A DNA stretch of 64,000 nt from Sulfodiicoccus acidiphilus (GTDB lineage Archaea; Thermoproteota; Thermoprotei_A; Sulfolobales; Sulfolobaceae), in assembly GCF_003967175.1 (NCBI RefSeq), contig NZ_AP018553.1:1599982-1663981 (forward strand), written 5' to 3'. Positions 38,229 through 39,515 of the stretch are shown one piece after another. A model generated the notes under the pieces. That model had not been told where the DNA came from, searched no databases, and saw nothing but the letters and a program-made list of their open reading frames with translations. The stretch's first letter is position 1; the number at the start of each line of letters is the position of its first letter. A program made the translations under genes and the position numbers.

Positions 38229-38546
38229 TCAGGGGTCTCCCACCTCACTCCTCTTGTAGTCTATTACGATCTTGAGTTTTTTGAGGAACGCCTCTCCGAC
38301 TAGGTTCTTCTCGATCGCGGGCAAGTTCAGGACCTCCACTACCATCTCCTTTCCAAAGGCCCTAACTCTGGACAGCTTGACGAAGGAGCTGTAGCATTCC
38401 ATCGACGCCGTACACACCCTAGGCCCCAAGGACGGCTCGAAGGGGATCCCGTCGAACGTTTCCTTACCAACCATCAACTCGCCCTCGAAGCCCGTGTCCA
38501 TCTTAGCCTTAATCCTAACTCCCTCTACCTGTAACTCAAATTCCAA
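38229..38546 (-). CDS. Retropepsin-like (clan AA) aspartic protease
   Basis: The protein has 105 residues, the size of a retropepsin monomer. The catalytic motif is [13 protein letters not shown] (Asp-Thr-Gly, residues 15-22) and the C-terminal hydrophobic-glycine motif is [20 protein letters not shown], matching the retropepsin core; it would be active as a homodimer. Its TTG start overlaps the end of the CARF gene by 11 bases, so the two are translated together. Stand-alone archaeal members exist; coupling to a CARF gene suggests the protease may act in the same response. That link is inference from gene overlap only. Confidence 0.75.
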
Positions 38547-39515
38547 GGAAGTACACCTTGTCAGGCACTTCGACTCTCACCTTTCTTCCCTCTCTCCGCT
38601 TGGATTCCATGAACTCGTAAGCCTCGGTCTCGTCGCCGAATTCCTTTTCTCCCTCACCCTCCACGACCACCCTGTAAGACTTGTTGGTGAATTCCTTAGG
38701 CAAGTAAATCCCTATCATCTTCCTCACCCATTCCTTCACCCTGTAGGCGTCCTCCCCCTTCTTCTCCGCCAGACCTCTAGCCTCGAGTAACTTGGCGGGG
38801 ACCCCCAGTTCCTCCACTTTACTTTCGGACAACGTGTAGCCCGAACTCGCGAATTTAACGAGCCACTCTAGGTAATTTTGCCTTATTGTGATCGGAGGGG
38901 CGGGGAGGGCGACTATTCCGTCGAACTCCTGGTACTTGTAATAGAGCACGTCCGCCCCCGCCAACAGCCCCGCCAACGACAGGAAGATCGTCTCCGGCTT
39001 CAAACCGGCAGTGACGTTGATGTACACCTCGTACCCCCTTTCCTTAAACTTAAGTACCTTATAGATCACCTTGTCGAAGAGGTCTACTACACCGGTGTAA
39101 AAGGACTCCTCCGAGGAGATGGTGCTAACCGTGGCGAGCTCGGTCTCGATTCCTTCGCCCTTCAAATACTCCCTTATCACTTCCCCAGCTAGCCTCGAGT
39201 TCCAAGTGTTGGTGGTGTACAGGAATGCGAGGACCTCTTTCCCACTTTGTTTAAACAACTTCAACGCTGAGAAAAGGGAGTCTAGCTCCGCTGAGCCCCT
39301 CTTGCTCTTTCCCCTCCAGGTAGCTTAGGAGGGCATTCTTCAAGTCGTCGAAGTTCTCTGCGATCACGTTCTGTCTATCATCGTTGAACTTAAGTCTGTC
39401 CCAGTCCTCGATCCTTAACTCTTTAACCTTTCCCTTCACAACAGTGTCTTCCAACGAATTTTTCAGTAGGGAAGTTACCCATGACAGAAACGTGCACTTT
39501 CACAACTATACTCAT
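38536..39515 (-). pseudogene. CARF-domain protein, APE2256-like family (two frame lesions)
   Basis: Three frame segments together encode about 325 residues. The start ATG 39515 ([14 protein letters not shown]) has a TATA-like element about 20 bases upstream. Removing one A from the A5 run (T5 at 39469-39473 on the plus strand) and one G from the G4 run (C4 at 39296-39299) yields one continuous protein with [20 protein letters not shown], then [20 protein letters not shown]. These match, block for block, the CARF protein at 28929-29843. The C-terminal 100 residues are a winged-helix-like tail. Its 3' end overlaps a retropepsin gene. Lesions may be sequence errors. Confidence 0.7.

Follow-up and report, generated by a model that had tools for sequence, protein, structure and literature searches.

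Sso1393, one of the earliest ring nucleases to be discovered, has been regarded simply as an off-switch. Its activity as a cA4 ring nuclease is known (PMC10018336), its structure is available as PDB 3QYF, and Crn1, the ring nuclease family to which it belongs, is a dimer (PMC12409355). Published accounts of Sso1393 and its orthologue Sis0811 (PDB 7PQ2) describe a CARF domain and a winged helix, with neither a C-terminal tail nor an overlapping protease gene (PMC10018336, PMC12409355), and a length limit of 250 residues for ring nucleases was applied in one of them, so that a longer, tailed Crn1 form would be excluded (PMC12409355). In SAVED-Lon (CalpL) and the caspase-like TPR-CHAT/Craspase, too, a protease gene accompanies type III CRISPR genes, a setting that the protease family considered here shares, perhaps together with control by the type III signal. 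An earlier note on the DNA studied here held that proteases activated by cyclic oligoadenylate (cOA) are of families other than the retropepsins; in a 2025 classification, cOA-activated proteases are of the Caspase and Lon families only (PMC12669027). The protease family that concerns us is recorded in PADLOC as PEPT_D, 'Aspartyl protease, in the type III operon in Sulfolobales' (PDLC01133), an entry that names it in type III operons only, without ring nucleases, a tail, or stand-alone or RHH partners. With such a protease already on record there, its occurrence in type III operons cannot be called new, and the suggestion of the earlier note that a retropepsin-like partner had not been described fails to that extent; it stands for the pairing with a ring nuclease, of which, as of the common tail described below, we found no description in the open-access literature. 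That absence is not proof, but it points to both being apparently undescribed. Proteases of the same superfamily are also found 3′ of RHH proteins that end in a DUF5678-like domain; these have no CRISPR partner, and their N-terminus is longer than that of the protease described here (about 35–40 residues before the DTG compared with 16).

We analysed a window, that is, the whole stretch of 64,000 nucleotides given as G000:C1:1599982-1663981, from the 2.35 Mb single-contig genome of Sulfodiicoccus acidiphilus. The features of the window that concern the argument are these:

28929..29864, minus strand: second Crn1-type CARF gene, intact, without an adjoining protease
33625..34533, plus strand: Csa1 gene
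38229..38546, minus strand: retropepsin-like aspartic protease, 105 residues, TTG start (TIGR03698, PADLOC PEPT_D, AlphaFold model)
38536..39510, minus strand: Crn1/Sso1393-type CARF-winged-helix gene with two frame lesions near its 5′ end; start approximate
38539..38688, minus strand: C-terminal tail domain of this CARF protein, DUF5678-like, common to all partners of this protease
38554..38558, minus strand: Shine-Dalgarno-like AGGTG, 7 nt 5′ of the protease TTG, at the same position in seven loci
41399-42268: Cas6 gene

The CARF gene product scored 110.9 bits with Pfam Cas_APE2256 (PF09651) and 133.2 bits with the SSO1393-like winged helix (PF22165), both above the cut-off, and is 68% identical to Sso1393 over 259 residues. 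Like Sso1393 and Sis0811 it has a CARF domain and a winged helix, and the 3QYF chain has the same C-terminal tail; unlike Sso1393, the window copy is broken near its start. The earlier note was thus right to call the protein APE2256-like, although it is not a bare sensor but a member of the Crn1/Sso1393 family of ring nucleases, and because it is a ring nuclease a signal-activated protease becomes one option among several. The gene stops at 38536, 11 bases inside the protease gene, and carries in this one assembly two frame lesions, both as the earlier note had described; one lies near codon 9 and the other near codon 64. The first ~9 codons are in a third register, residues ~10–65 are encoded at 39475-39308 and residues 63–321 at 39315-38539, leaving an incomplete open reading frame where five relatives have an intact one. 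The open part spans only positions 64–322 of the NF040951 equivalog model and scored 437 bits with it, below the cut-off of 600. Since the N-terminus of the CARF protein is broken while the tail and the protease stay open, CARF sensing and control by cA4 have probably been lost in the window genome, and with the sensor broken a working signal-dependent pair, as the earlier note had envisaged, is unlikely here. Given the Csa1 and Cas6 genes nearby, the pair sits in a type I cas region. The second Crn1-type CARF gene of the window has a weak tail-like C-terminus (the LGVYDDENRALEEAKKF region) that scored above all of 2000 shuffles with an iterated DUF5678-like profile, not with a narrower profile, yet no protease lies beside it. 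Elsewhere in the window, a plus-strand gene at 35916-36704 has about nine copies of a 21-base unit, which encode a SLEANQK coiled coil, and after them a C-terminus that is predicted, if weakly, to be PD-(D/E)xK-like; three tandem copies of a 177-base unit lie within one open reading frame at 48731-49261, also on the plus strand.

The protease gene conforms to the earlier description of a 105-residue clan AA protease with DTG and NLVG motifs: DTGF occupies residues 17–20, the NLVG motif is present, and the product scored 78 bits with the NCBIfam model for clan AA aspartic proteases, TIGR03698 (curated cut-off 57.35), and 83.8 bits with PEPT_D. The catalytic D-T/S-G motif and the second, hydrophobic-x-Gly, motif of retropepsins can both be recognized, and among 18 homologues D17, G19, F20 and G84-E85 (the DxGF and GE motifs) are invariant, position 18 being T or S. 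An AlphaFold prediction of the monomer, with 18 relatives as input, had a mean pLDDT of 88, and its best matches in the PDB were the retroviral proteases of HIV, EIAV and XMRV (Foldseek E 4e-5, TM 0.68–0.76, Z 12–12.6). By family model and predicted fold, then, the window protease is a retropepsin and not a Lon- or caspase-family enzyme; compared with CalpL and Craspase it has an aspartic retropepsin fold and, instead of being fused to a sensor, is a protein of its own that a tail apparently recruits. Viral contigs, scanned with the protease alignment by a single short pattern, yielded no relative. All seven loci that pair a Crn1/Sso1393-type CARF gene with an intact protease gene support the TTG start: in each of them AGGTG or GGTG lies exactly 7 nt 5′ of the TTG and a stop closes the upstream frame within about a dozen codons. 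The catalytic Asp is preceded by 16 residues in the 18 proteases of classes A to D (defined below; two exceptions have 17 and 20), and residue 1 of the model aligns with residue 9 of HIV protease, making the protein about 8 residues short. The dimer sheet of retroviral proteases uses residues 1–4; starting at the equivalent of residue 9, the protease therefore has no N-terminal dimer strand. Ddi1 and some other retropepsin-like proteins dimerise differently, and absence of this strand need not block dimerisation.

The same CARF-protease pair (class A) is present at eight loci in six genera, all of them Sulfolobaceae and in differing genomic settings. In five of these genomes (G004, G015, G018, G027 and G030) the CARF gene is intact and overlaps the protease gene identically, so the two are not accidental neighbours; the earlier note had reasoned that unrelated neighbours in relatives, or a CARF gene dead in all strains, would speak against the pairing, and we saw neither. 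One of the five, G015, is S. solfataricus, in which the CARF protein matches the 3QYF chain and is thus Sso1393 itself; another, the Metallosphaera yellowstonensis locus (G018), was reached by scanning genome contigs with Sso1393. The CARF gene is broken at the other three loci: in G012, as in the window, the CARF core is broken with the tail and protease open, and in G009 both genes are broken. Between S. solfataricus and G004, dN/dS is close to 0.10 in the protease, 0.09 in the tail and 0.07 in the CARF core, and at ~0.1 the protease is under purifying selection.

The pair is thus a conserved unit, which supports the earlier note in treating the two genes as a pair; that note made no mention of its key feature, the common C-terminal tail. 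The tail occupies ~50 residues at the C-terminal end of the CARF protein and recurs 5′ of related proteases in other settings. It forms an extension of a RAMP protein, the III-G Cas7, in six genomes (class B); it is found in a CARF protein of G024 with a core 46% identical to Sso1393 (class C); three tandem copies of it make up stand-alone proteins in G004, G020 (twice) and G030 (class D); and the class E partners are RHH proteins with a C-terminal DUF5678. Pfam recognized neither the CARF tail nor the Cas7 tail when searched alone. As an unbiased test, we built a tail profile from the stand-alone repeats of class D only and ran it against 6,664 open reading frames. All matches before chance level lay directly 5′ of a retropepsin, with E-values of 4e-7 to 9e-3 for CARF tails, 5e-5 for one RHH partner and 0.018 for one III-G Cas7/RAMP tail, and an iterated version of the profile picked up the remaining RHH partners. 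Profile-profile comparison with the repeats gave 97.8% for the CARF tails and 93% for the Cas7 tails, the weakest sequence link of the set, and in each of the three comparisons tested none of 100 column shuffles reached the observed score. In 31 Sulfolobaceae genomes, a profile of the CARF and stand-alone tails gave 14 strong sites, all of which lie directly 5′ of a retropepsin gene or its remnant. Weaker matches in G002, G027 and G029 were on inspection unrelated proteins. Across the order the tail was detected at E 1e-3 in 9 of 214 genomes, all nine Sulfolobaceae. A model of a triple-repeat partner was of low confidence (pLDDT 65), and fold searches with it returned nothing convincing and did not list 3QYF. 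In most tails the C-terminus is a short hydrophobic strand (VYFLGI, VYFLL, EYHL, VWSLL) that immediately precedes the start of the protease. The stand-alone triple-tail and protease units (L110–L113) lie away from recognizable cas genes, and two of them occupy the same chromosomal position in two genomes.

Close homologues that lack the tail also lack the protease. None of eight tail-less CARF homologues (G021, G044, G056, G055, G046, G049, G033 and G036) has an adjoining protease. The earlier note had asked whether the pair moves with type III loci, and the module is indeed also built into type III-G operons, which match PADLOC Cas10g, Cas5_IIIg, Cas7_IIIg and Csx26 (G013, G016) and in which the protease sits between the two Cas7 genes; PEPT_D scored 189.6 bits against one of these protease copies. 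The protease gene comes next in 6/6 cases where the III-G Cas7 has a tail and in none of three where it has not. These three tail-less loci are G004:2005272, G028:2168156 and one at 1852323 in the window's own genome, and in them the protease position is filled by a gene about as large as Csx26. Near three protease-carrying III-G operons we also noted two-gene AAA-ATPase-like units (L104:5693-7518, L107:4518-6141 and L106:8210-9905). For 18 tail-protease pairs, the distances among tails and among proteases are correlated (Mantel r 0.85, with none of 5000 permutations as high, and 4 of 5000 when permuted within classes). In the diverged CARF of G024 both the tail and the protease are closer to the III-G set, a pattern suggesting a second, joint transfer of tail and protease onto a CARF, the placement being unsure on a long branch. 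Every intact protease occurs with an intact tail (18/18); an intact tail with a broken protease occurs at two loci (G004:1305301 and G030:1402269), and the reverse case at none. At one of these two loci the protease is truncated and a transposase-like gene adjoins it.

Taken together, we observe co-occurrence, a common tail, a kept overlap and start, purifying selection and parallel evolution of tail and protease, along with a predicted retropepsin fold. We put at about one in two the probability that the CARF and protease genes form one tail-plus-retropepsin module on CRISPR components, the tail of which binds or controls the protease. The module would be attached in Sulfolobaceae to the Crn1 ring nuclease (the Sso1393 family) and to the Cas7 subunit of III-G complexes, and probably a further time to a CARF of diverged Crn1 type. 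By binding the protease, the tail may tether it to the CARF dimer or to the Cas7 filament, and the C-terminal strand of the tail (for example VYFLGI) may supply the missing dimer strand, pairing two protomers on a dimeric CARF; the occurrence of strand-ended tails directly before short-start proteases suggests a role for the tail in completing or capping the protease. With Cas7 forming a filament and Crn1 a dimer, two protomers could be brought together on either partner. The protease could then be switched by Crn1 binding or cleavage of cA4, or by target binding in III-G. The Cas10 of type III-G is described as incapable of cOA synthesis (PMC12669027), and control by cA4 cannot therefore be the rule for all partners; nor can control by CRISPR be the sole setting of the module, because stand-alone copies lie outside CRISPR loci. 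The second CARF of the window, tail-like at its C-terminus if only weakly and yet with no protease beside it, also speaks against the proposal. A more specific form of the proposal is a split retropepsin, in which the strand of the CARF or Cas7 tail completes the dimer only on the CRISPR component and cA4 binding and cleavage are the on and off switch; we think this rather improbable as it stands.

The main and a serious rival to docking or completion is an antitoxin-like guard, in which the tail would hold a harmful protease in check, as proteins with RHH and DUF5678 may do in toxin-antitoxin-like pairs. Fused to a CRISPR component, such an inhibitor would bring about addiction or guarding, with loss of the component or viral attack freeing the protease. 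Related DTGF-type proteases elsewhere in the phylum are paired with an RHH-DUF5678 protein in overlapping or adjacent two-gene units, so that a small two-gene unit with an RHH-type antitoxin describes these relatives, whereas the window pair has a CARF partner. Decay that spares the tail, with two tail-only loci and zero protease-only loci beside the 18 intact pairs, is what an inhibitor would leave, as are the broken CARF cores but open tails and proteases of the window and G012. The numbers are small, however, and an activating tail would likewise persist while the protease was useful, and we consider inhibition somewhat unlikely.

The tail may instead be a substrate and not a regulator, the protease cutting the C-terminal tail or the core of its partner in maturation or self-limitation. 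The short hydrophobic C-termini of the tails would suit a retropepsin cleft, and the winged helix of Sis0811 is reported to be auto-inhibitory, so clipping could activate the ring nuclease (PMC10018336). The presence of the tail on three unrelated partner types and in tandem repeats that carry no other domain fits a binding domain better, and processing strikes us as quite improbable. That unrelated genes came to overlap by chance and drifted together in one family, for which the restriction to Sulfolobaceae and the CARF gene broken at 3/8 class-A loci could be cited, we reject as highly improbable on the co-occurrence of tail and protease (unless it is an alignment artefact), which are found together on at least three unrelated partners, are jointly absent from close homologues, and keep the same pairing in six genera and different genomic settings.

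If, as the module reading has it, Sso1393 carries and controls a retropepsin, the type III CRISPR systems of Sulfolobaceae would have a proteolytic arm of a third family, the extra C-terminal domain in the 3QYF chain would be explained, and the common tail would tie the ring nuclease, the type III-G complexes and the toxin-antitoxin-like pairs into one module. The parts are all small and one has already been crystallised, which should allow quick testing. Were the split-retropepsin form of the proposal true, the ring nuclease would be a timed protease switch, beyond an eraser of the signal.
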